Assembly: GCF_017654505.1 (NCBI RefSeq)
Contig: NC_054559.1
Coordinates: 2,984,781-3,048,780, forward strand
DNA: 64,000 bases
From: Polyodon spathula
Taxonomy: Eukaryota > Chordata > Actinopteri > Acipenseriformes > Polyodontidae
Reading direction: 5' to 3'
Positions 19,133 to 56,100 of the stretch are shown piece after piece. The position numbers and the translations under genes are program-made. The notes below the pieces were generated by a model. That model did no database searches. It had not been told where the DNA came from and worked only from the letters and a program-made list of their open reading frames with translations. Position 1 is the first letter of the stretch. Every line of letters begins with the position of its first letter.

Positions 19133-19445
19133 AGAGGTATGCTGGCCAGCTCTATCTCTCCGCTCTGTTATGTTTGTAAACTACCTTGTTTGTTGTGTCC
19201 CAAGGGCTTGTACACTCGCTACTTAGTATCCTGATGTACGAAGAGGCTTCTTGTAAAGACTGCTGTAAGATTATCTCCCTGCTTCTTTCCCTTTGCTATC
19301 TAATACTCATTAAACATGGAACTTTATCTGTATGTAATAAACATATTCATGTTATGAAACACAGGTGTGTGTGTATGTGTGTGTACACCTCCGCTTCATC
19401 GCTGTACATTATATCCTGTAGCAGGCTCAACGAAATCCATGCCAC

Positions 19446-19447
<2 letters not shown>

Positions 19448-19528
<81 letters not shown>
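19448..19528. repeat. (GT)n(TA)n microsatellite
   Basis: About 30 bases of GT followed by about 50 bases of TA. Overlapping ORFs rich in CV, IY and TH are artefacts of it. Confidence 0.95.
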
Positions 19529-35197: not shown

Positions 35198-38100
35198 GTG
35201 AGTGTCTGTGTGTGTGAGAGATGCCAACATAGAACACATTGCCTCCACTTTAACCACTAGAACACGCAGCCTCCCAGCTCTCACCAATAGACAACACTGC
35301 CTCCCTCACAGTCGCTCAGCTCTATCCACTAGACTACACAGCCTCCCAGCCCCTCTGCTGTCATCAATAGACCACACTGCCTCCAGTCCCTCTGCTCTAA
35401 CCACTAGACCATACTGCTTCCCAGTCTCTCAGCTCTCACCAACAGACCACACTGCTGTGAAAGAATGAAAGTAGTCGATTTAAATCATGATTTAAATAAT
35501 TTTCATTTACTACACTATTTTATATAGTTTCTCAAGGAAAAGACATGACATTTTAAAAGCCTTTTATGAACACAAACATTGTAAACTATTACTGTCTATA
35601 CACTAAAACTTTTTTTTTAAATATTTAAATTTAGTAATCGCCAATTGATTTTACCCTGTTTTTCTCCCAATTTGAAATGTCCAATTGTATTTAGGCTCAG
35701 CTCACTGCTACCACCCCTGTGCTGACTCAGGAGTGGTGAAGATGAACACACCCTGTCCTCTGAAGCGTCAGCCAACTGCTTCTTTTCACTCTGCAGGCCC
35801 GCCATTCTGCCAGCCCAGAGCTACATTGTTGGAGGACAATGCAGCTCTAGGCAGCTTACAGGCAAGCCTGCAGGCACCCAGCCAATCTACAGAGGTCGCT
35901 CCTATCCACGGTCAGCAGTGGAATAGCCTGGACTTGAACCAACAGCCTCCAGGCTACAGGGCTCATCCTGCACTCCATGCGGAGCTCCTTTACCAGATGC
36001 GCCACTCAAGAGCCCCTTACACTAAAACTCTTAGGGCTGTATTCTAATCATAGCGCAAATGCGACTGGAAGCGCTAACTGCGCTTCCCCCAACCCCCTGA
36101 TTCTTCTGTGGCGCATAAATGGAGTGAAGATGTAAAAAACAGTACTGCACTGAAATGGTATTCTGAAGACATGTCTTGCCCCGTTATAGAGCACCTGCCC
36201 CATCATTAACATATTCGCTAAAGTGATTCTGATGACAGTACAGTGGGGTCCCAAATAGACAATTGAGCTGTGTTAAGACCCGCTGAAACTAGGTTTATTT
36301 AGTGGTGCAATCAGGAACTTTAACAATTGAACACACTATAAAAAGCAAAGTAGTCCCAGGTAACAATTGCGTGTGTTTGGACTGACACAGAAAGAGGAAT
36401 CAAAGAAAGAAAAGAATAACTTGGATGAGGGGTATTTTTCTCTAGCGTATCCATTGCTAAATGCTTGTAGTTCACATATTGCAGTTCACATTTAGAGGAT
36501 GCCACAATGATAAATAATTTACTTTCGGTATTAATTTATGATCTAACATCCTTAAATTTATAGTTTTGAGTACTGTAGAACTACAACTATGGTACTATAA
36601 AAAAAAAATCCATAATAAAATAATAAAAATAAATAAATAAATAAAAAAAACAAAAATCTAATTTAAATAAAATGAGTAAGATTTTTGAAAACGAAAATCA
36701 CCAACCCTAGTGTTGCTATGAAAGTAAACGTAGTGTTGCTATGAAAGTAAAGTAAACATAGCTTGCTATGAAAGTAGACGTAGCGTTGCTATGAAATGAA
36801 AGTAGACGTAGCGTTGCTATGAAAGTAGACGTAGCGTTGCTATGAAATGAAAGTAGACGTAGCGTTGCTATGAAAGTAGACGTGAAAGTAGACGTAGCGT
36901 TGCTATGAAATGAAAGTAGACGTAGCGTTGCTATGAAATGAAAGAGACGTAGCGTTGCTATGAAAGAAAGTAGACGTAGCGTTGCTATGAAAGTAGACGT
37001 AGCGTTGCTATGAAATGAAAGTAGACGTAGCGTTGCTATGAAATGAAAGTAGACGTAGCGTTGCTATGAAATGAAAGTAGACGTAGCGTTGCTATGAAAG
37101 TAGACGTAGCGTTGCTGTGAAAGTAGACGTAGCGTTGCTATGAAATGAAAGTAGACGTAGCGTTGCTATGAAAGTAGACGTAGCGTTGCTATGAAATGAA
37201 AGTAGACGTAGCGTTGCTATGAAAGACGTAAAAGTAGACGTAGCGTTGCTATGAAATGAAAGTAGACGTAGCGTTGCTATGAAAGTAGACGTAGCGTTGC
37301 TATGAAAGTAGACGTAGCGTTGCTATGAAATGAAAGTAGACGTAGCGTTGCTATGAAAGTAGACGTAGCGTTGCTATGAAATGAAAGTAGACGTAGCGTA
37401 GCGTTGCTATGAAATGAAAGTAGACGTAGCGTTGCTATGAAATGAAAGTAGACGTAGCATTGCTATGAAAAGACAGTAGACGTAGCGTTGCTATGAAAGT
37501 AGACGTAGCGTTGCTGTGAAAGTAGACGTAGCGTTGCTATGAAAGTAGACGTAGCGTTGCTATGAAATGAAGTAGCGTTGCTAGTAGACGTAGCGTTGCT
37601 ATGAAAGTAGACGTAGCGTTGCTATGAAAGTAGACGTAGCGTTGCTATGAAATGAAAGTAGACGTAGCGTTGCTATGAAATGAAAGTAGACGTAGCGTTG
37701 CTATGAAAGTAGACGTAGCGTTGCTATGAAATGAAAGTAGACGTAGCGTTGCTATGAAAGTAGACGTAGCGTTGCTATGAAATGAAAGTAGACGTAGCGT
37801 TGCTATGAAATGAAAGTAGACGTAGCGTTGCTATGAAAGTTGCTAGCATGCTGTGAAAGTAGACGTAGCGTTGCTATGAAATGAAAGTAGACGTAGCGCT
37901 TGCTATGAAAGTAGACGTAGCGTTGCTATGAAATGAAAGTAGACGTAGCGTTGCTATAGAAATTGCTAAAAGTAGACGTAGCGTTGCTATGAAATGAAAG
38001 TAGACGTAGCGTTGCTATGAAAGTAGACGTAGCGTTGCTATGAAAGTAGACGTAGAAAGTAGACGTAGCGTTGCTATGAAATGAAAGTAGACGTAGCGTT

Positions 38101-41100
38101 GCTATGAAAGTAGACGTAGCGTTGCTATGAAATGAAAGTAGACGTAGCGTTGCTATGAAAGTAGACGTAGCGTTGCTATGAAAGTAGACGTAGCGTTGCT
38201 ATGAAATGAAAGTAGACGTAGAAAGTAGACGTTGCTATGAAATGAAAGTAGACGTAGCGTTGAAATGAAAGTAGACGTAGCGTTGCTATGAAATGAAAGA
38301 GACGTAGCGTTGCTATGAAATGAAAGTAGACGTAGCGTTGCTATGAAATGAAAGTAGACGTAGCGTTGCTATGAAATGAAAGTAGAGCGTTGCTATGAAA
38401 GTAGACGTAGCTTTGCTATGAAAGTAGACGTAGCGTTGCTATGAAATGAAAGTAGACGTAGCGTTGCTATGAAAGTAGACGTAGCGTTGCTATGAAATGA
38501 AAGTAGACGTAGCGTTGCTATGAAATGAAAGTAGACGTAGCGTTGCTATGAAATGAAAGTAGAAAGTAGACGTAGCGTTGCTATGAAAGTAGACGTAGCG
38601 TTGCTATGAAATGAAAGTAGACGTAGCGTTGCTATGAAAGTAGACGTAGCGTTGCTATGAAAGTAGACGTAGCATTGCTATGAAAGTAGACGTAGCGTTG
38701 CTATGAAATGAAAGTAGACGTAGCGTTGCTATGAAATGAAAGTAGACGTAGCGTTGCTATGAAATGAAAGTAGACGTAGCGTTGCTATGAAAGTAGACGT
38801 AGCGTTGCTATGAAATGAAAGTAGACGTAGCGTTGCTATGAAATGAAAGTAGACGTAGCGTTGCTATGAAATGAAAGTAGACGTAGCGTTGCTATGAAAT
38901 GAAAGTAGACGTAGCGTTGCTATGAAAGTAGACGTAGCGTTGCTATGCTAGACGTAGCGTTGCTGTGAAAGTGACGTAGCATTGCTATGAAGATGAAAGT
39001 AGACGTAGCGTAGCGTAGCGTTGCTATGAAATGAAAGTAGACGTAGCGTTGCTATGAAATGAAAGTAGACGTAGCGTTGCTATGCTATGAAAGTAGACGT
39101 AGCGTTGCTATGAAATGAAAGTAGACGTAGCGTTGCTATGAAATGAAAGTAGACGTAGCGTTGCTATGAAATGAAAGTAGACGTAGCGTTGCTATGAAAG
39201 TAGACGTAGCGTTGCTATGAAATGAAAGTAGACGTAGCGTTGCTATGAAAGTAGACGTAGCGTTGCTATGAAAGTAGACGTAGCGTTGCTATGAAAGTAG
39301 ACGTAGCGTTGCTATGAAATGAAAGTAGACGTAGCGTTGCTATGAAATGAAAGTAGACGTAGCGTTGCTATGAAATGAAAGTAGACGTAGCGTTGCTATG
39401 AAAGTAGACGTAGCGTTGCTATGAAAGTAGACGTAGCGTTGCTATGAAATGAAAGTAGACGTAGCGTTGCTATGAAAGTAGACGTAGCTATTGACTATGA
39501 AAGAAGCGTTGTAGACGTAGCGTTGCTATGAAATGAAAGTAGACGTAGCGTTGCTATGAAAGTAGACGTAGCGTTGCTATGAAAGTAGACGTAGCGTTGC
39601 TATGAAATGAAAGTAGACGTAGCGTTGCTATGAAATGAAAGTAGACGTAGCGTTGCTATGAAAGTAGACGTAGCGTTGCTATGAAAGTAGACGTTGCTAT
39701 GAAAGTAGACGTAGCGTGCTATGAAATGAAAGTAGACGTAGCGTTGCTATGAAAGTAGACGTAGCGTTGCTATGAAATGAAAGTAGACGTAGCGTTGCTA
39801 TGAAAGTAGACGTAGCGTTGCTATGAAAGTAAACGTAGACGTGAAAGTAGTTGCTTGCTGAAAGAAAGTAGACGTAGCGTTGCTATGAAATGAAAGTAGA
39901 CGTAGCGTTGCTATGAAATGAAAGTAGACGTAGCGTTGCTATGAAAGTAGACGTAGCGTTGCTATGAAATGAAAGTAGACGTAGCGTTGCTATGAAATGA
40001 AAGTAGACGTAGCGTTGCTATGAAATGAAAGTAGACGTAGCGTTGCTATGAAAGTAGACGTAGCGTTGCTATGAAAGTAGACGTAGCGTTGCTATGAAAG
40101 TAGACGTAGCGTTGCTATGAAAGTAGACGTAGCGTTGCTATGAAATGAAAGTAGACGTAGCGTTGCTATGAAATGAAAGTAGACGTAGCGTTGCTATGAA
40201 ATGAAAGTAGACGTAGCGTTGCTATGAAATGAAAGTAGACGTAGCGTTGCTATGAAATGAAAGTAGACGTAGCGTTGCTATGAAAGTAGACGTAGCGTTG
40301 CTATGAAATAGACGTAGCGTTGCTATGAAAGTAAGACGTAGCGTTGCTATGAAAGTAGACGTAGCGTTGCTATGAAAGTAGACGTAGCGTTGCTATGAAA
40401 GTAGACGTAGCGTTGCTATGAAATGAAAGTAGAAAGCTATGACGTAGCGTTGCTATGAAATGAAAGTAGACGTAGCGTTGCTATGAAATGAAAGTAGACG
40501 TAGCGTTGCTATGAAATGAAAGTAGACGTAGCGTTGCTGAAATGAAAGTAGACGTAGCGTTGCTATGAAATGAAAGTAGACGTAGCGTTGCTATGAAAGT
40601 AGACGTAGCGTTGCTATGAAAGTAGACGTAGCGTTGCTATGAAAGTAGACGTAGCGTTGCTATGAAATGAAAGTAGACGTAGCGTTGCTATGAAAGTAAG
40701 ACGTAGCGTTGCTATGAAAATGAAAGTAGACGTAGCGTTGCTATGAAAGTAGACGTAGCGTTGCTATGAAATGAAAATGTAGACGTAGCGTTGCTATGAA
40801 AGTAGAAAGCGTTGATGTAGCGAAAGAAAGTAGACTTAGCGTTGCTATGAAATGAAAGACGTAGCATTGCTATGAAAGTAGACGTAGCGTTGCTATGAAA
40901 TGAAAGTAGACGTAGCGTTGCTATGAAATGAAAGTAGACGTAGCGTTGCTATGAAAGTAGACGTAGCGTTGCTATGAAAGTAGACGTAGCGTTGCTATGA
41001 AATGAAAGTAGACGTAGCGTTGCTATGAAAGTAGACGTAGCGTTGCTATGAAAGTAATTGCTACGTAGCGTTGCTATGAAAGTAGACGTAGCGTTGCTAT

Positions 41101-44100
41101 GAAATGAAAGTAGACGTAGCGTTGCTATGAAAGTAGACGTAGCGTTGCTATGAAAGTAGACGTAGACGTGCATTGCTATGAAATGAAAGTAGACGTAGCG
41201 TTGCTATGAAATGAAAGTAGACGTAGCGTTGCTATGAAAGTAGACGTAGCGTTGCTATGAAATGAAAGTAGACGTAGCGTTGCTATGAAATGAAAGTAGA
41301 CGTAGCGTTGCTATGAAAGTAGACGTAGCGTTGCTATGAAAGAAAGACGTAGCGTTGCTATGAAAGTAGACGTAGCGTTGCTATGAAAGTAGACGTAGCG
41401 TTGCTATGAAATGAAAGTAGACGTAGCGTTGCTATGAAAGTGAAAGTAGACGTAGCGTAGCTATGCTATGAAAGTAGAAAGTAGACGTAGTTGCTATGAA
41501 ATGAAAGTAGACGTAGCGTTGCTATGAAAGTAGACGTAGCGTTGCTATGAAATGAAAGTAGACGTAGCGTTGCTATGAAAGTAGACGTAGCGTTGCTATG
41601 AAATGAAAGTAGACGTAGCGTTGCTATGAAATGAAAGTAGACGTAGCGTTGCTATGAAATGAAAGTAGACGTAGCGTTGCTATGAAAGTAGACGTAGCGT
41701 TGCTATGAAAGTAGACGTAGCGTTGCTATGAAAGTAGACGTAGCGTTGCTATGAAATGAAAGTAGACGTAGCGTTGCTATGAAATGAAAGTAGACGTAGC
41801 GTTGCTATGAAAGTAGACGTAGTGTTGCTATGAAAGTAAATTACGTAGTGTTGCTATGAAATGAAAGTCGATGTAGCGTTGCTATGAAAGTAGAAGTAGA
41901 CGTAGAAAGTAGTTGCTATGAAAGTAGACGTAGCGTTGCTATGAAATGAAAGTAGAAAGTAGACGTAGCGTTGCTATGAAAGTAGACGTAGCGTTGCTAT
42001 GAAAGTAGACGTAGCGTTGCTATGAAATGAAAGTAGACGTAGCGTTGCTATGAAAGTAGAAAGTACGTAGCGTTGCTGAAAGTGAAAGTGTGAAAGTAGA
42101 CGTAGCGTTGCTATGAAATGAAAGTAGACGTAGCGTTGCTATGAAATGAAAGTAGACGTAGCTTTGCTATGAAAGTAGACGTAGCGTTGCTAGAAAGTAG
42201 ACGTAGCGTTGCTATGAAATAGCGTTGCTATGAAAGTAGACGTAGCGTTGCTATGAAATGAAAGTAGACGTAGCGTTGCTATGAAATGAAAGTAGACGTA
42301 GCGTTGCTATGAAAGTAGACGTAGCGTTGCTATGAAAGTAGACGTAGCGTTGCTATGAAATGAAAGTAGACGTAGCGTTGCTATGAAATGAAAGTAGACG
42401 TAGCGTTGCTATGAAAGTAGACGTAGCGTTGCTATGAAATGAAAGTAGACGTAGCGTTGCTATGAAAGTAGACGTAGCGTTGCTATGAAATGAAAGTAGA
42501 CGTAGCGTTGCTATGAAATGAAAGTAGACGTAGCGAAAGTTGCTATGAAAGTAGACGTAGCGTTGCTATGATATGAAAGTAGACGTAGCGTTGCTATGAA
42601 AGTAGACGTAGCGTTGCTATGAAAGTAGACGTAGCATTGCTATGTTACAGAAAATAGACTGGTAAGGACTTGAGGCTACAGGTTTAAAGCAAGGTGTAAT
42701 GCAGCCTAACTTTCCCTGTGACACAGCTGTGTTGGAGGAGGCTGGCTCTGAGATCCTGTGGGAGTCTGTCCACACGATGGAGTCTAGGAGTATGGTACAG
42801 CCCCAGCCTGTTCCCTGCAGCATCACCTGGACCAGAGAGAGCCCACAATGCAGCACCACAGATATGGTAGGTTCACATTTGCTAAATATTACCGTTGCCA
42901 CAGTAACAGTTGAGCATTTAGTCTAGGAAAAAAAGCAGAATTAGCCAGAGCTTGACTGAATTCTTTAAAACAGGAGTTGACAAAGTTAAACCCAATCAGT
43001 ACTTTAAAGTAATTGTAGTTATCAGAATAATCACTTCCATGAGCTACATGGTTCTCTTTCTTTTCAAAGAAACACTTGATATAGAAAACATGTATTTTCA
43101 TTTTAAAACAGATCTTTGAGTTAAACAAAAAAAAAACATTCTCAGCCTTGCCTTCCAGGAGACCAGTTATTGCAGAACTTTCTTCATCATTTCACCTCAG
43201 CAGTCTGTTCTGGGTCATGTTCCTGGCTGGAAAGCATGTCAGTCAACAGGAGAATTAGCTGGTTGGTTAATGACAGGAAAGAAGCCAGCGAAGGGGTGGG
43301 GACAATTTCATGGTGGAGGGTTCCATTGTTCTGATGGGGAGTGGGGAGTCGGTGGAGGGTTCCCTGGTTCTGATAGGGAGGGGGAGTCAATGAAGGGGAT
43401 TAGGGGTTCCCTGGTTCTGAAAGGGAGGGGAGAATCGGTTCAGGGGTTCCCTGGCTCTAGTGGGGAGGGGGAGGAGTCAGTGGAGGAGTTCCCTGATTCT
43501 GAGGAGGGAGTCAGTGTTCCATTATTCTTATGGGGAGGGGGGAGTCAATGGAGGGTTCCCTGGTTCTGACAGGAATGAGGGAGTCAGTTGAGGGGGTTCC
43601 CTGGTTCTGATGGGGTGAGGGGAGTCAGTGGAGGGTTCCATGGTTCTGACAGGGAGTGGGGGGCGGGGTAAGTGTAAGGGTTGAGGGGTTCCCTGGTTCT
43701 GAGGGAGGAGTCAGTGGAGGGTTCTATGGTTCTGACAGGGACGGGGGAGTCAATGGAGGGTTTGAAGGGTTCCCTGGTTCTGAGGGAGGTTTATCTCCTG
43801 CAGGCAGAGAAGGAGCAGAGCTCAGTGAAAGAGGAGCAGATTGTGATGCTGGTTTCTCAGGAGGAATTTCTAGAAATGACTGTCTCCATGAAACAGGTAA
43901 GCCCTCCTATAGACATTGTGCTTCTCAGTTACAATTACTGAACAAACTCTTCATCACCACCCCGCTAGATGTGTCAGAATGATACACATGAAATCTGGAA
44001 TATTAATAATATTAAGCATCTGGAAATCTATAGCGTTATTGGAGAATAAAGTTACCACTGAGACACCACTCCTGACGTATAAAAGTAAGGACCCTCCGTT

Positions 44101-47100
44101 AACAGAGTGGAGAGCGCTGATGCCCAGCTTTAATGAAAGAGGATATATTGGAATAATTAACCCAAGGGGGAATGAGTTCAAGATATTGTTTTCAAGAGTA
44201 GATGCTTTATCTACAAAGACAATTGGACCAGTGAAACTGGACTGGAACCAACAGAACTCTCTGTCTTTTTGAGTTTCCTCTTCTTGAACTCTCTGTCTTT
44301 TGAGTCTGTGCCCTGTCTTGAAGCAGCTGTTGATTAGTGTTCAAGCTGCTAGTCTGCGTCCTTGAAAACAATAATAATCTCATAGACTCCAGTTGGTGAT
44401 TGCAGATGGAAAAAGTGAAGATATAGATAGAGATTCTCAGACCACCTCCCCACCCTCGCTCCACTGTTAAAGGATCAAATCCTCAACCAACTTCTGAATA
44501 TAAACAGCTTCACATGACATGACCACAGACTGGGGGCTCTAACACATTAAAATGATTGATTGTTTGACCCTTTGGATATTTTCTCTGATTGATCCATTCT
44601 GTAACTCTGAACTGCATGATTGAATCACTTATTTACTCCTCTAGCTATTCTGTGTTCAATACAACTGCGTTACTTTACTAGAGTTGTTGTATGTTGTTTT
44701 GGATACACTTTTGTCATATATTTGAACCCTTGAAGTATTGTAGTTGGTTTTCCCAGTTAATTTGACCCAGGAGATGGTTGTCTTAAACAATGAAACACCC
44801 TGAATCTTCATGACACAAATATGGATTTTCATTTTAAAACATGATATCTGGCACTCCTCTAGGTTATAAAAACATTCTGTTTGCAAACCTTTCTTTTACA
44901 CTGTCTTGCACTTCCTGGGTCACTTCACCTCTAGAGTGAACTTGTCCCACCCCTTCAGGACATGCCAGCTGCTTCCTCTAATCACATGAGACTCTGCTGG
45001 GGTGAAATGACCAGGGAAGGAAAGCAGTAACAGACTGCCTGGAAGGCAAGGTGATTGATAACATGGTGTAGAGATCTGTGTTGTAGTGTCGTGATCTATA
45101 TAGTATTGTAGAGATCTATGTAATTTGTAGTGTAGAGGTCTGTGTAGAGATGTGTGTAGTGTAGAGATTGTGTAGTTTGTAATGTAGAGGCCTGTGTAGT
45201 AGTGTAGAGGTCTGTGTAGTGTATAGGTCTGTGTAGTAGTGTGTAGTGTAGAGGGCTGTGTAGTGTAGAGGTCTGTGTACTGTGTAGTGTAGAGGTCTAT
45301 AGTGTGTAATGTACAGATGTGTGTAGTGTAGAGGTCTGTGTATTGTAGAGCTCTGTGTAATAGTGTGTAATATAGAGGTGTGTGTAGTTTAGAGGTCTGT
45401 GTATTGTAGAGCTCTGTGTAATAGTGTGTAGTGTAGAGGTCTGTGTACTGTGTAGTGTAGAGGTCTGTGTAGTAGTGTGTAGTGTAGAGGTCTATGTACT
45501 GTGTAGTGTAGAGGTCTATAGTGTGTAATGTAGAGATGTGTGTAGTGTAGAGGTCTGTGTAGTTTAGAGTCTGTAGTTTAGAAATCTGTGTAGTGTATAG
45601 GTCTGTGTAGTAGTGTGTAGTGTAAAGGTCTGTGTAGTGTAGAGATCTGTTTAGTACCAGATGGGGTTATAAAATGAAAATACATGTTTGTTATACATGT
45701 GTTTCTTTCAAAACTGCACATTAATTGAATGAGGAAGGCTTTTAAGTCGTGGCACTTTGGATTCTCTAACAAGCTCAATGCCAGAGTAACTTAAAGTAAC
45801 TTAAATTCAAGCACATAATTGCTATTTTGTGCTGGAAGGACCAGCAAGATACTTGTGTGTTTGTTAGGACTCAAAGAGTTTTGTTTGTCTGTTCGTCTGC
45901 TGTTTGTTTAGTGTTAATCCATTTTGTTTGTATTTATTTTGGCCTCAAGTGCCGTGTCCTATGTTTTCTGTGTCATTCAAACCTTTATTTTCTGCTCTGT
46001 TTAATTATTAAATGCTGAGCGCAACGAAGCGCTCAGCTTAACCAAACTCCACGTCTCTGTCTGTTCTGTGTTGGTCCCTGTTTCTGGTCTGACGTCACCC
46101 ACTACAGCCGTCTTTGTGAAATGTGGTGTCAGACCGGGACAACAGCGCCTCCTGAACTCAGGCCAGAGCAGGTACTGCATGGGGATATTTCTCTTGCATT
46201 AAAAAAAAAATGGGAAAGAACAGCAGAAGGCAGCAGCCACAACACCAGCTGGAGGAACAGATACCCGGGTGTTACTGCTGCGCTGGGACGGGTCATTCCA
46301 GCACAAACTGTCCCTGGTACCCCCTTGGGCAGCGACCCCAACTATGCCCCATCTGCGGAGGTAAGCACTACATGTCCCATTGCCCTGTACATCAGAAGAG
46401 GGAGGAGCAGGGATCGCCCCAGTTTCTACAACCAGCAGGGGTGGTAGACTGCTGCTCCCACCACCCCAGCAGCAACAGCCACAGCGGCCAGAGGAGCCAG
46501 AGAACCTGTTCCCCTGGTGCACTTGGTGCGGAAAGGAGGATCACCGTTGGAGGGACTGCTCCAAGGTGCCACCGAGCTGGTGCGGGCGATGTGAGGAAGG
46601 GGGACACGACTGGTCAGGATGCCCCTATGCCAGTGCCCATGAGATTCCAGCGCCCAGACGGGGGGACCACGAGAGTCCACAAGGAGAGCCGCACCAGTCC
46701 CCTGCAAGTGAGGGAGAGCCGCACCAGTCCCCTGCAAGTGAGGGAGAGCCTCTGTTGCCAGGACACTACACGCCGCTCCCACCTCCATTGCTAGGAGACT
46801 ACACAGCCGCTGCATAGGCTCCTGAGGGAAACACAAGGAAGAACCACCCGGCCGCAGTGGCTACGAAAAAGGCCAAAACCTGCACCCCAGATTGTCCTGA
46901 CTCCCTTCACGTCATCACTCAGGGATGCCTGCATGACACCACCCAAGAATGCCTTCACGTCATCGCCCTGGGATGCCTGCTCCGCATCGCCCGAGGTTGC
47001 CTGCTGCTCCGCATCGCCCGGGGTTGCCTGCTGCTCCGCATCGTCTGGAATCACCGGAATTGCTTTGTCAGGGGTCGCCACCAGCTCTGGGGATGTGCTG

Positions 47101-50100
47101 GGGCTTGAAGAGCCATCCCGGAAGCCATTAATGGCTCTGCTACCTTTCCACAGTCAGCTAGGGAGCCGCTGGTTGTGAAGAGGAGGAAGGAGGTCTGGAG
47201 ACCACCAACCCCAGCAGCAGTATCGCTGCCGGAGATCATGGGGGAGATCAGGAGACCTGCTGTCATGGCAGCATTTTCGCTACAGGAAGTGCTGTGGCCG
47301 AAGCCACACAAGGCGGTACGGGGAAGGGGAGGGGCCAGGTCTGGAGACCATCAACCCCAACAGTCTTTCCGCTGTTGGAATTGCCCCGGCTGAAGGAGTC
47401 AGCCTGGGAGCTGTCGGCACATCTGCTGACAGCCTCACCTTTGGCAGCATTTCCGCTACCAGTGGTACAGTGGGAGGAGAGGCTCGTCCCGCTGTCAGTA
47501 CGTCTGCTGACAGCCTTGCCAGTAGCAGCCTGGCTACTGGCAACATTGCTGCCTATGAACCCCTTAAAGTGCAGGTAAAATATAATAATACGTGAGCGCA
47601 GGAAATTGCACTTCATTAATTCACGTGCAGTTGTACCGAGACTCCAATTGAATGATTGATTAGCACAACACAATCTTGGTACAGCTGCATAAAAGCAGCA
47701 TGTTTTCACTCGCTTGCGGCTGTGTGTTCGGTGAGTGGAGAACGGGTGTGGAAAGGAGAAAGTAAAAAAATGAAGTAAATTAAATTCAAGCACATAATTG
47801 CTATTTTGTGCTGGAAGGACCAGCAAGATACTTGTGTGTTTGTTAGGACTCAACGAGTTTTGTTTGTCTGTTCGTCTGCTGTTTGTTTAGTGTTAATCCA
47901 TTTTGTTTGTCTATTTATTTCGGCCTCAAGTGCCGTGTCCTGTGTTTCGTTTGTCTTTCAAACCTTTTATTTTCTGCTCTATTTAATTATTAAATGCTGA
48001 GCGCAACGAAGCGCTCAGCTTCACCAAACTCCACGTCTCTGTGTTATATGTTGGACCCTGTTTCTGGTCTGATGTCACCAACTACAGCCGTCTTTGTGAC
48101 AACCCTCTAACAATCCTACCTGTTGTTCACTTCCATTTGAATCATACTGTAGGTCCCACTTGTCCAAAGAAACACATCTTACAGTAAACACGTATTGTTA
48201 TTTTAAAACATAAATTATACTACCCTGGTTAAAGAAACCTCTGCAAGCCAAGCTTTCAGTTAGTGCTGCACTTCCCTGAGTGACATTTGTCTCCACCCCT
48301 TCACTGGCTTCTTTCCTGTCAATAACCAATCAGCTGCTCCCACTATTGACTGACATGCTTTCAGCCAGTAACATGCCCAGGAGACACTGCTGGGGTGAAA
48401 TGTCCCAGGAAAACTGTACCAGAATTCCTGAAAGGCACGGCTTTTAAACAGATTAACCTAGAGTAGTGCCAGATAACTATTTTAAAATGAAAATACATAT
48501 TTGATATGTGTGTTTTCTTTTTGTTTTGAGATCTATGTAATTAATGGAAGTGAAAAATGGTTAAGATTTTTGGAATTATTTTCTTAGCTAAAATTCCTTT
48601 CAATGTGCTTTATGGATTACATTAGATTTGGTCACTGGAGTTTAACATTTTGTTATTGGGCTTTAGAAGGCCACAGTTCCTCTCTAAAAATACCCCAGTT
48701 TGCAATGAATTCTGTTGTTTGCATTGAAGCGGCTGCTGTGTTTGTAGATTGGAACCTGAATGTGTTTGAATGTGTTTTCTCTTGGTACAGAGCCAGCTTG
48801 GTCTTGTGCAAGATGATGTATCTGATTCAAAGTCTTCCCTCCTGTTTGATTTTCTTCAGAAAGAACCTGGAAAGATCGGCACTCTTGCAGTGCTGGGCTC
48901 CGATCCACACAGCTGGTAAATGTTCTCTCAATGTATAGTATTCTGCTGGTATCGCGACGGGGGTGTATTGGAGGAGGCTGTATCTACGCACATCAAACAT
49001 ATATCTGGAGAACCGCTTCTCCAATTTTCATGACACTCAGGATTAACATTATTTTATTATGTCTGTCAGTCCTAATTGTTGTTCTGTATGATACTGTTTG
49101 ACAGCTCTGTTTTAAATGTACAGCTGTGGCAATGGGGGATGGGTGTTACTGACAGGCTTCTTTAACTTGTGCAGACACTTCAAAAGGGCAATCTTATTCA
49201 GACTGTGTTAGTCATGCCTGAAACGCTTGTATGGGTGAATGAGTAGCGTCATGGTCAAAGCTGGGTAGGAATGAGACTTGGAGACAGGAAGCTGCAGTTT
49301 AAATCATGTTTATTTACCAAGACAGGAGCCAAAGAAACAGAGGAACAAAATAAAGGTACAAAATAAAGAAAATAAATATTTTAAACAAACACTCCCTAAT
49401 ATTTAGGCTGGACAGCTGCCTTCACTGAATTATCCCTCTCCTTGTTCAGGCTGGACAACCGCCTTCACTGAATTATCCCTGTCCTTGTTCAGACTGGGCA
49501 GTCATATTCACTGAACCCTCTCTCTTAAGCCGGACACACCCTGCACGACGACTCTTATCTGAGTTTGCACAGATTCTGTTATCAGTTGTGCTCAGTTTTG
49601 GTTTGACGCCACAATTTAGTTTTTCCCGACTGGGTGTCGCATGCTGCTAAGACTGAATTACTGACCAAAAGTAGATACTGATACATTCTGTGTATGTAAA
49701 TTTAATTAATGCTGCCCTGTACACAATTTTGTATTAATGTAGCCCAACATATCGACCCTCATTATGCAGGGCATAGTATGCTGATTAGACGACGGAGACA
49801 GTGCTGCAAGGCAACCAAAAGAAGCGCTTGGCCTGTTAATTTATCTGTTGACTGTTTACACTGTGAAAACGCTTCAGGCAGTGTTTGACTTTTTGTATAG
49901 TTTGTCTACCTGCGGTAAATAAAATCCAACCTGTTGATTTTTATTTGGCTTAGGCAGGTTTTTTTTTTTTTTTCTCAGCGTGTGGATCTAGGGGCTTGTG
50001 ATTTCTGATCGATTGGAGATTGACGCTCCGGTTACTTCTGTTTTAGCGCAATAAGAAAATATAGGCTGCTGGTAGATTGATAATAAAAAGGTAAATTGAT

Positions 50101-53100
50101 CATTTAACTTTAGATTTAGTAAACGCCTAAAAAAAACTATTCAAATGTTCACATATCTGGTATTTTTTTAATTCAGGACAGCAATTCAAGACTATTTTTA
50201 CCAGTGGAACTAAAGCTGTCAATATTCCGCCATCTTGTATGACAAGTTACATAACAAGCTATGTCACTTAAAACTGCTTCACCATTGGTTGACACCGTTA
50301 TGACTAATCGGTCTCAGTCAGACTTGATCAGCAACTGGCGCACACAGACAGACTGATCACATCTGAACGAAACTGCGTCTGAAAAAGATTCAACATGTTC
50401 AATCTTCAGATCTGCATAATCTTGGTTTTAAGGGCATGGACACACTGCTACGATTCATCCAGTTGAGATGAGATGAGTCGGGACGGCTTGAGTCGGGCTG
50501 TGTGCACCGGGCTGCAGTCCGTGCATCAAACCATATACCACGTGGCTGGGGCTTGATTGGCCATCAGACCTCATCCTCAGTGTCGCTATCCTGTGTGCCC
50601 ATGTCTTGATGCTGGCTCTGCAGGACTGTATTTAAGCTGTTGGCTGCCTTGCTCTTGTTTCAGGTATTTTCAGAGAGGGGTCTGGAGAGGGCGCAGAGGC
50701 CTTGAGGTGACAGAGGCTGATATCGAAGAGGTAAGTGTTGAGCAAGGGATTGTAGCTAAAAAAATAATTCCACGCCATGCACATACATTCACTGTGCAGG
50801 GCTTGTGTATTTTCATTTTAAAACATGTCTTCTACTACACAATCTTAGAGAAATCACTGTGCAGACCTTGCATTCAGATTGGCTTGCGTTTCCTTGGTCA
50901 CCTGGAGAGTGACTTTGTTGCCACCCCTCAGGGCCTTCTTTTCTGTCAGTTACAACCAGCTGCTCCCCCTATTGACGGTCATGCAGACATGAAGAGGACC
51001 CCAAAGAGATAAAATGACCAAGGAAATGAAAGATTTTCAGGCAGGCAAGGCAAGCAACCATAGAATGTTCTTTATCCTGTCCGGCTAAAATGAAAATTCC
51101 TATTCATAATATAATGTGTTTTTTTCGAACCTGCACATTTGAGGTCTATAAAAATAATGTGTTAAGTGCTGACACATTGTTAACTGCACTGGGTCTGTGT
51201 GGCAGTGTTTCTCAGGGTGCTACTCTCCTCTAGATGCTGGTCTCCATGCAGCTGCAGAGACACATTGTTAACTGCACTGGGTCTGTGTTGCAGTGTTTCT
51301 CAGGGTGCTGGTCTCCATGCAGCTGCAGAGACACACTGTTAACTGCACTGGGTCTGTGTGGCAGTGTTTCTCAGGGTGCTGCTCTCCTCTAGATGCTGGT
51401 CTCCATGCAGCTGCAGAGACACATTGTTAACTGCACTGGGTCTGTGTTGCAGTGTTTCTCAGGGTGCTGGTCTCCATGCAACTGCTATCTCCATGCAGCT
51501 GCAGAGACACACTGTTAACTGCACTGGGTCTGTGTGGCAGTGTTTCTCAGGGTGCTGCTCTCCTCTAGATGCTGGTCTCCATGCAGCTGCAGAGACACAT
51601 TGTTAACTGCACTGGGTCTGTGTTGCAGTGTTTCTCAGGGTGCTGGTCTCCATGCAGCTGCAGAGACACATTGTTAACTGCACTGGGTCTGTGTTGCAGT
51701 GTTTCTCAGGGTGCTGGTCTCCATGCAACTGCTATCTCCATGCAGCTGCAGAGACACACTGTTAACTGCACTGGGTCTGTGTGGCAGTGTTTCTCAGGGT
51801 GCTGCTCTCCTCTAGATGCTGGTCTCCATGCAGCTGCAGAGACACATTGTTAACTGCACTGGGTCTGTGTTGCAGTGTTTCTCAGGGTGCTGGTCTCCAT
51901 GCAGCTGCAGAGACACACTGTTAACTGCACTGGGTCTGTGTGGCAGTGTTTCTCAGGGTGCTGCTCTCCTCTAGATGCTGGTCTCCATGCAGCTGCAGAG
52001 ACACATTGTTAACTGCACTGGGTCTGTGTTGCAGTGTTTCTCAGGGTGCTGGTCTCCATGCAACTGCTATCTCCATGCAGCTGCAGAGACACACTGTTAA
52101 CTGCACTGGGTCTGTGTGGCAGTGTTTCTCAGGGTGCTGCTCTCCTCTAGATGCTGGTCTCCATGCAGCTGCAGAGACACACTGGTTCTGTGTGGCAGTG
52201 TTTCTCAGGGTGCTGCTCTCCATGCAACTGCAGAGACACATTGTTAACTGCACTGGGTCAGTGTGGCAGTGTTTCTCAGGGTGCTGCTCTGCTCTAGGTG
52301 TTGGTGTCCTTGCAGCTGCAGAGAAACACTGGAGTTCTATTCCTGGAGTCCTGGGAGGAGCTGAGCAGGCATGTCTGTGCTGTCACCAAAGCTGTAGCAA
52401 ATCGGCCTTTCAGGTAAGTGCTGACAAGCCCAATCTACTGAGAAAACCTATTATTTGGGTGCAGTAACTTAAATGTGGGGAGCACCATTTAAAACACTAA
52501 CGATCTCTTTCAATTTCAATGTCCTGTCATTAAAATCCATCCCCTGCAAGTCTATAAATTCATGAAGTTGGCGCATCAGTGTAATTAAAACTTTGATGAC
52601 CAGACATATATACACAATTCTACAGAACATTGTAGAATTAGCAATTAAATGTTAAATCACAATGTGATAAGCAAATAGTGACAGGATAGTCAGACACCCT
52701 GCTACACCCTTAGTATCTGATATTCCAAATCATTCAAACAAAATAATGTTATTACCAAGTTTTATTACAGTTGGATAAGCGCTTCTCCAGATATGTGTGC
52801 AGTGTGCAGTGTGACATGCGTGTGCACGACTGTCTCCACTGTATCCCCTTTGCACAGGATAAGAATAGCTTTATTGGCATGACCTTTATTTAGGGTCTCC
52901 CAAAGCAATGTTATTGTGCTCAATGGTGACTATGGTTACAGATTATATTTAACAGCAACAAATACACTACAAACAGGAAGGGCAGTGTTTTAAATTGTGT
53001 CTCTCTGCCTGTGACTAGCTAAAATATAATCTTGTGTCAGTATTGTTTGGAATTTTATGAAAATGAGTTTTGTTTTGGGAAAATCATAACTGTTGCATCC

Positions 53101-56100
53101 ATACACTAGAAGACACCCATCTTCCCTCTATATATCCCAGTCAGGCTTTTATTCATTGTCTGTCATTTTTGTAGACCATTTGCTATTTGTCTGTCTGAGA
53201 GCCTTCAATTCATCCCAGTAATTACCATCAGGTCCCAAACACCACTTCTCAGAAGAGCCTGCTGCTATCTGCTGCTTTCCTTCCTTCATACAGAATCATT
53301 TTGCTCCTTTTTTTCCATTTTTCCTGACAGCACATGCAATGGTGCAAATGGATGTGGTGGGTTAGGTTATTTGGAGAATTGTGAGCTGGGCTGCAACAGG
53401 ATTGATTGACACCACAAGTTATATACAGCCATCTATTTTTGGCACCAGAAACAGTGAGGACTGCAGAGTCGATAGAGACCCAGCTCTGTGTTTCACTTGG
53501 TAGCATCACAAAGAACATGCTAATGTTCACAGTGGAATATCACAAAGAATATGCTAAGGTTTACAATGGAACATGCTAATATTCACAGTGGAACATCAGA
53601 AACATCATTCTAATATTCACAATGGAACACCAAAAAGAACATGCTAATATTTTCAATGGAACATCACAAAGAACATGCTAACATTCACAATGGAACATCA
53701 CAAAGAACATGCTGATATTCACAATGGAACATGCTAATATTCGCAATGGAACACCAGAAGAACATGCTAATATTTTCAATGGAACATCACAAAGAACTTG
53801 CTAACATTCACAATGGAACATCACAATAACATGCTGATATTCACAATGTAACATGCTGATATTCACAATGGAACACCAGAAGAAAATGCTGATATTTTTA
53901 ATGGAACATCACAAAGTACATGCTGATATTCACAATGGAACATCACAAAAACATGCTGATATCCACAATGGAACATCAGAAGAACATGTTAATATTCACA
54001 ATTGAACATCACAAAGAACATGCTAATATTCACAATGGAATATCACAAAGAACATGCTAATATTCACAATGGAACATCAGAAAGAACATTCTGGTATTCA
54101 CAATGGAACACACACCCTATGCACTGTGCCCACGACCTGCTACGTTTAATGTATCACCCCTTGTATAATGCATTCCTCTGGTATAGCACAGGCGTAAAGC
54201 AAAGAATAATACGAATAGGATCAATCGTACTTTAAACTGTGTTTAATATACTATATACTACATTTGTGTCAATTAACCCTAAACTGTACGCTTGTTGTAA
54301 AGTTAGACAATCCCAATATATAACCATTGGTTTTAGTTCTAGTTTTCTCAAACTAAATGAAGGCTGGACTGACTTATGATACACAAGTATACAGCACATT
54401 GTGTACACAATGTGTCCCCTGTGTATTGGGCCGGGCAATGCTTCTACAATTTGAATTAACAGTGGCTGGGTAGGACAGAGCCCTGCACGTACATACGGGG
54501 CAGGGCAAAGCCCTGCTTGTAAATAAATGTATTGTTTTGGTTTTAGAACTGGTGTATTTAATGAATGGTTTGTAAAGATGTATTGTGTGATTTGAAGGTG
54601 GTGGTTTGTTGTTGTATGTTTTGTTTGGGATTATTTATAGGGGAAATATTGTTGTATATTATAAGTGTGAGACTGCATGGTCGACAGTTAGTGATTATTG
54701 ACTAAGTGACTGTCGACCACGTAGATATAAAAACCCTGTGTAGAATGTGTCCATTTTCAGATTTATTGATTCATTTATTGCTAAACTGGATATGGTTGCA
54801 TCTATAAAAACCCTGTGTAGAATGTGCCCATTTCCATATTCATTTATTGCTAAATGGTCACATGTATAAAAACCTGCAGCTTTTGTTGTTCACGGGTCGG
54901 GTTGTACAGAGAGGATGTACGTGAGAGAGCGAGACGAATTCAAACAAAAGTAAAAAGTAAAGAAATGCAACATGTGTTAGTTTTCGAGATTTGTTTTTGT
55001 TTGACCATTTATTTTGCTCCATGAGCAGTGGTTTTTGTGAGCGTGGTTTTTGCTTAAACACTTTTCCCCTGCAAGTACCTGTCTGTCTCTGTATCAGCTT
55101 CCTGGTCTGGGGATGTCATTACTGCTGTCTTGCAACAAACCCGTAAGAATATTTAAAAACTAGAAGAGATCATTTGGCCAGTTTGTGCTCGTCCGGTTCC
55201 TAGAAGCTGGATAATCTCAAAACTTTGGCATGTTAATTGTTAAAGAATCCCAGTGATTCAGCATCAACAATGTGACTAGGTAACCCATTCCCTCTCTATG
55301 TGAAGAAGTGTCTCCTTCAGCAACATGACTAGGTAACATTCCATCCCTTCACCACTCTCTTTGTGAAGAAGTGTCTCCTTCCCTGTGGCTTCTCTTCACT
55401 TTTCAACTGTGCCCTCTGGTCCTGGTTTCTGTGCTGTGATTCAAGTATTGGTTTTGAGTTCTGTATCAATTCAACCACAGGCCCCCTTATTCTTGTTTGT
55501 TCCAGGCTAAATTGATTCTGTTCTTTCAGCCTATTTTCATAGCTCAGTCCTTTAATCGCTGGGATTAATCTGGTTTCTCTTTATTGAACTCTAACAATGT
55601 CCTTTTGATGCTGTGGTGACCAGAACATAACATTGTAAGTGCAGCCTCATCAGTGTGTTATACAAATTGATTTGATTTGTGAGTGTGAGTTGTGCATGCT
55701 GTCTCAATGTGCGTCTCTAGGAAGCAGATGCAGGAGCAGGCGGAGGTGCTGCCGTTCTGCGCGGATGGCTTGTGGGCTGGAGGGGTGAGAGTGGAGAAGG
55801 ACGGTGCGGGGCTGAGGCAGGTCTGGCAGAGGCAGCTCCAGCAGCTCAACAGAGTGAGCCCTGCAATGGCAGCAGCCGTAGCAAGTGTCTACCCTTCCCC
55901 TCAACTGCTACTGCAGGTAAGCAAACCATACAGACCACTGGGCAAGTTAGTATCCTAAAGATGCAATAAATAGGGTGTTCAAAACTAAAAACAGTAGTCA
56001 GATCAGAGCCTTCAGTTCTCCTGAGCTGCTGTGGGGAATTGCTGCGGTGAGGGAACGTAATCTAAATTCGGGAGGAAATCGAGGTCATACGATTAAAATG

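Follow-up and report, generated by a model that had tools for sequence, protein, structure and literature searches.

Intron 5 of EME2 in the paddlefish Polyodon spathula contains a minisatellite whose units carry copies of the gene's own exon 6 acceptor together with the start of that exon, placing six decoy acceptors upstream of the real one. We consider the array to be probably a "mirage" that arose by tandem duplication of the acceptor and exon start and that is mainly silent, with low-level leakage into decay-prone transcripts. The analysis covers a 64-kb stretch of P. spathula DNA, here called the window; positions are counted from its first letter.

Gene identity and exon structure

Joined exons 5-8 match the Pfam family EME1-MUS81_C, and their top match among PDB sequences is human EME2 (E 1.7e-50), with EME1 a close second. 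The top entry of a protein search was "probable crossover junction endonuclease EME2 isoform X2 [Polyodon spathula]" (P0002), whose 444 residues are all found in the window, in the right order and spread over eight plus-strand blocks. On these matches the gene that contains the array is EME2 of the paddlefish, a DNA-repair gene. By letters alone V285, at the exon 5/6 border, could be assigned to either side of intron 5; we place it at the start of exon 6 because a donor, GTAAGT, follows 50730 and an AG ends at 52297. The database protein is consistent with use of this acceptor, and the P0002 blocks and the donor and acceptor positions bear out the gene, exon 6 and phase 0 proposed by an earlier interpretation made from the letters alone (the sequence-only reading). 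Exon 6 is annotated as skipped in a relative, the sterlet, whose isoform P0006 joins exon 5 directly to exon 7 (IEE-EAGAGGG), which suggests that the EME2 exon 6 acceptor may be weak.

Upstream in the gene, paddlefish isoform X2 enters exon 4 at 48860 (region 48770-48916). Sterlet isoform X1 has a longer exon 4, and since the counterpart of the longer form is open in the window just upstream of 48860, an alternative exon 4 acceptor is likely. Much of intron 1 is filled by a 5.9-kb minisatellite (36718-42624; 28-nt unit, about 223 copies). The minisatellite of intron 2 (43312-43789) comes to within about 14 bases of the boundary of exon 3 (start 43804) and excludes it, and a third, with a 34-nt unit family (ATGGAACAT...), lies in intron 6 at 53506-54114. 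Long overlapping open frames in intron 3 (46156-47575) have cysteine motifs that we take to be CCHC-knuckle-like, perhaps belonging to a transposable element.

Anatomy of the array

Tandem Repeats Finder, together with cutting of units at GACACA[T/C]TG, resolves the intron 5 minisatellite into 14 units with lengths of 88, 71, 88, 88, 88, 71, 88, 88, 71, 88, 88, 88, 59 and 88 nt (Table 1); these begin at 51171, not at 51165 where the sequence-only reading had set the start. The six type A units carry CTCCTCTAG followed by ATGCTGGTCTCCATGCAGCTGCAGA, and every one of them has the parts of an acceptor: a branch-point-like TTAAC, pyrimidines, an AG and an exon start. The combination of CTCCTCTAG with exon-like sequence, which the sequence-only reading had seen in the repeat unit, is thus present in 6 of the 13 units upstream of the real one. 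That reading had placed all six decoy AGs and the real one exactly, but AGs are far more numerous than its six acceptor-like sites: intron 5 has 102, the real acceptor included.

Nine places in the array match the first 30 bases of exon 6 at 25 or more of 30 positions, namely the six decoys and the three B units, which lack the AG. No match of this quality was found elsewhere in the window, either on the minus strand or on the plus strand outside the array. Chance is excluded as an explanation, since in 60 first-order Markov resamplings of intron 5 the best match to the exon 6 start was 21/30. When 14 EME2 boundaries were compared with the window (the score for the exon 2 start being void), only the exon 6 acceptor had adjoining tandem copies that include the boundary; the exon 1 donor had one 22-base cross-boundary match, far off, at 19445-19466.

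Table 1. Positions of the array, its units and the flanking EME2 exons in the window
Feature	Position	Strand	Remark
EME2 coding exon 5	50664..50730	+	encodes P0002 residues 263-284 and the final base of codon 262
Exon 5 donor GT	50731-50732	+	exon 5 3' end in phase 0, last base 50730
Whole minisatellite	51171..52322	+	unit order A B A C A B C A B A C A D R
Unit 1, type A (88 nt)	51171..51258	+	decoy AG ending 51233; 2 differences from the other A units
Unit 3, type A	51330..51417	+	decoy AG ending 51392
Unit 5, type A	51506..51593	+	decoy AG ending 51568
Unit 8, type A	51753..51840	+	decoy AG ending 51815
Unit 10, type A	51912..51999	+	decoy AG ending 51974
Unit 12, type A	52088..52175	+	decoy AG ending 52150, the closest to the real AG (147 nt upstream of it)
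Type B units (71 nt, 3 copies)	51259..51329 (unit 2), 51594-51664, 51841-51911	+	exon-like, without CTCCTCTAG
Type C units (88 nt, 3 copies)	51418..51505 (unit 4), 51665-51752, 52000-52087	+	without CTCCTCTAG
Unit 13, type D (59 nt), shortened	52176..52234	+	without CTCCTCTAG
Unit 14, type R	52235..52322	+	real acceptor (AG ending 52297) and first 25 bases of exon 6
EME2 coding exon 6 (116 nt)	52298..52413	+	donor GT at 52414-52415

Origin and turnover

The direction of copying was read from an alignment of 120 of the 701 EME2 proteins found, in which some rows are isoforms of one species. In these rows residue 289 (exon 6 codon 5) is L in 117 of the 117 with a letter, and residue 285 (codon 1) is one of V, A, G and I, again in 117 of 117. 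The decoys have methionine codons at both positions, and M occurs at neither in the 117. Because the residues of the exon are conserved and the M's of the decoys are absent from these proteins, we infer that the exon sequence is old and that the decoys are altered copies of it, in support of the suggestion in the sequence-only reading that exon 6 seeded the array. A further candidate trace of an older exon was H at codon 10, which the decoys encode and which the three Acipenser rows that have a letter there share, the paddlefish exon having N. Most of the aligned rows have N, however (109 of 120), and the base sits at a unit junction, so codon 10 decides nothing and we rejected this candidate.

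The array would owe its origin to a tandem duplication that took in the 3' end of intron 5 and roughly 25-34 bases at the start of exon 6. The repeat unit opens with intronic GACACATTG, and the copied part ends in the exon at GAAACACTG, a similar sequence; these short matches make slippage or unequal exchange between the two a plausible start, and the duplication probably happened in this way. The units of the array are consistent with recent turnover: 5 of the 6 A units are identical (unit 1 is the exception), as are all 3 B units and all 3 C units, and exact repeats of 377, 277 and 206 bases occur inside the array, with the 377-base copies 582 bases apart. By contrast with this uniformity, a comparison of R with any A unit shows 7 mismatches in 88 positions, three within the 63 intron bases and four within the 25 exon bases. 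Recent homogenisation or expansion has thus affected the centre of the array but not its working edge. The sequence-only reading had allowed that array and exon edge exchange sequence; with identical inner units and seven differences in the real edge unit, such exchange is not supported at present.

Two other accounts of these patterns have to be weighed. A pre-existing minisatellite might have spread into the edge of exon 6, or might overwrite that edge repeatedly, and the last unit does continue unbroken into the exon. However, the exon-start residues are conserved in the aligned EME2 proteins as well as in human EME1 and EME2, and the real unit has kept its seven differences from A units that are otherwise nearly identical, which makes spread into the exon highly improbable. 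The other account concerns unit number, which comes from one assembly and one sequence and could in part be an assembly error where inner units are identical; the long exact repeats are what would invite such an error. Differences between edge and inner units, and the alternation of three unit types, show that an array of at least smaller size exists, and we hold a partly erroneous count to be improbable.

Acceptor strength and choice of site

We scored acceptors only roughly, using consensus frequencies. On this rough scale the six decoys score 7.91-8.05 against 7.56 for the real site, six array AGs of another kind (7.79) also outscore it, and it ranks 14th among the AGs of intron 5. The highest rough score in the intron, 10.86, belongs to an AG at 50949, outside the array and after a long pyrimidine run. 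Compared with the real exon 6 site, four other EME2 acceptors score higher (9.29-11.55) and that of exon 7 lower (3.66), again by the rough score. Concealment of the decoys by RNA structure was considered and rejected: in local RNA folding the mean unpaired value is 0.27 for the real site and 0.42-0.45 for the decoys, which are no less accessible.

GTTAAC is present in all six A units and in R. Its branch-point-like A is 50 bases away from the acceptor AG in units 1, 12 and R, and other AGs intervene, two in units 1 and 12 and three in R; the three of the real unit, at 52261, 52269 and 52279, are 36, 28 and 18 bases upstream of 52297. Under the scanning model (Smith et al. 1993, as described in PMC10946897), even the real site would have to win over AGs that are nearer, unless it has a different branch point. 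Use of 52279 would read GGT GCT GCT CTG CTC TAG, with a stop at the sixth codon. The exon up to the exon 6 donor measures 116 nt from 52297, and would measure 263, 439, 598, 845, 1021 or 1180 nt from the successive decoys upstream. Most likely 52297 is favoured by its nearness to the exon 6 donor; splicing would go mainly to this nearest site by exon definition.

Predicted outcome of decoy splicing

Reading from phase-0 exon 5, all six decoys lead to an in-frame stop before the exon 6 donor. For 51233 and 51815 the stop is the TAG of the next decoy, for 51392, 51568 and 51974 it is the TAA of GTTAAC, and for 52150 it is the in-frame TAG of the real acceptor (52295-52297). The sequence-only reading had foreseen this last case, with both distance and TAG right; its statement that some decoys would truncate EME2 holds as to the stops and falls short as to their number.

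Under the usual exon-junction rule a transcript is expected to decay when its stop precedes later exon junctions, and this is expected of decoy transcripts because exons 7 and 8 lie downstream of the stop. Occasional use of a decoy, above all 52150, would put the stop before the junctions of exons 6/7 and 7/8, and nonsense-mediated decay should remove the decoy-spliced transcripts. The array would then be nearly neutral, with its length free to change. A protein search with the tail formed by exon 5 and decoy 52150 gave 4 candidates, none at E<=10. The absence of a database protein with this tail is weak evidence, as decay-prone products would rarely be found in such databases. The open frame 51925-52464 gave 633 candidates in a protein search, none at E<=1, and Rfam gave 0 matches at the gathering threshold in the window.

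Comparison with known systems

Mirages are described from lancelets as minisatellite-like tandem copies of an intron-exon boundary, in the globin genes BflGb6 and BflGb9, in Adh3, in troponin C and, added by PMC3902484, in PGBD5 (PMC3087553, PMC3902484). According to the account of BflGb6 in PMC3087553, the copies comprise the 3' end of an intron and the 5' part of the next exon, the units are 81-100% alike, the edges are left out of homogenisation, splice signals occur in many but not all copies, and splicing is regular by RT-PCR; for the Adh and troponin C mirages, PMC3902484 says that no aberrant mRNAs result. The paddlefish array resembles these lancelet arrays in its tandem boundary copies, in having signals in many copies and in an edge outside homogenisation. 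It differs in size: the two BflGb6 haplotypes have 6 and 3 units, each of 150-160 bp, compared with 14 units of 59-88 nt in the one paddlefish sequence. Three testable anatomical features of mirages are found here, namely a tandem array beside an exon, a unit that spans intron end and exon start, and an authentic boundary that is the end unit, outside homogenisation. Judged by this anatomy the array would belong to the mirage kind, on the acceptor side and in a fish, and paddlefish EME2 looks like a clear fish case.

In vertebrates, the 25-bp VNTR in intron 18 of human ABCA7 also starts at an exon edge with a repeat that includes a splice signal: its first two bases are the exon 18 donor, and when the donor of the following unit is used, one unit is retained and the frame shifts (PMC5954066). 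That array differs in being on the donor side, in its 25-bp unit, in its association with disease and in having been demonstrated with RNA, whereas the paddlefish array is on the acceptor side and its units include coding sequence. Among fish, alleles of seabream myostatin-2 intron 1 differ in repeat number, and in one of them a predicted acceptor outscores the real one (0.99 against 0.98; PMC3045353); this is one extra predicted acceptor near the intron 5' end, not a run of boundary copies. In potato RdRp, duplication across an intron end and the start of the next exon made a new intron, the duplicated piece carrying, as here, branch site, pyrimidine tract and acceptor (PMC4974935), and intron gain by tandem duplication is also treated in Drosophila (PMC2891723). 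In those cases a new intron arose; none is evident in paddlefish EME2. We rejected intron gain in this gene, as two sterlet proteins share the exon 5/6 junction: in P0006 IEE is followed directly by exon 7, and in P0005 VLVS is joined to exon 3. In duplicated human genes, according to PMC2812944, new introns may form from variable repeats that lie at exon-intron boundaries. The open-access literature searched yielded no vertebrate acceptor-side mirage.

Functional alternatives and significance

Instead of being mainly silent, the decoys might act as a functional brake, diverting a tissue-dependent or repeat-number-dependent share of transcripts into decay and so tuning EME2 dosage. The rough scores, which put the decoys at or above the real site, and the early stops of all six are in keeping with this, as is the effect of array length on splicing in human ABCA7 (PMC5954066). 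Against it, database proteins include no decoy product (such decay-prone products being rarely annotated), and lancelet arrays of like kind are reported in PMC3087553 and PMC3902484 not to disturb splicing; we think a brake unlikely. We give about the same small chance to a more specific proposal, that this is an acceptor-side mirage of a vertebrate, with a unit number that differs from one individual to another and determines the loss of EME2 pre-mRNA to decoys, the real acceptor's TAG serving as the stop of its nearest decoy. If true, it would amount to a length-variable dosage dial on a subunit of a structure-specific nuclease, and to a lasting reserve of ready-made acceptors from which exons or introns could be gained. 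A recent, mainly silent duplication is the most likely reading.

The six decoys and the real acceptor resemble each other closely, and the database protein uses only the last of the seven sites. They offer a natural test of spliceosome choice among copies whose main difference is position, the candidates for the chosen site being the one nearest to the donor, the first after the branch point and the strongest. The array would also carry the lancelet mirage type over to the acceptor side of a fish gene, beside the donor-side ABCA7 VNTR of humans, and suggests that such arrays may repay a systematic look.
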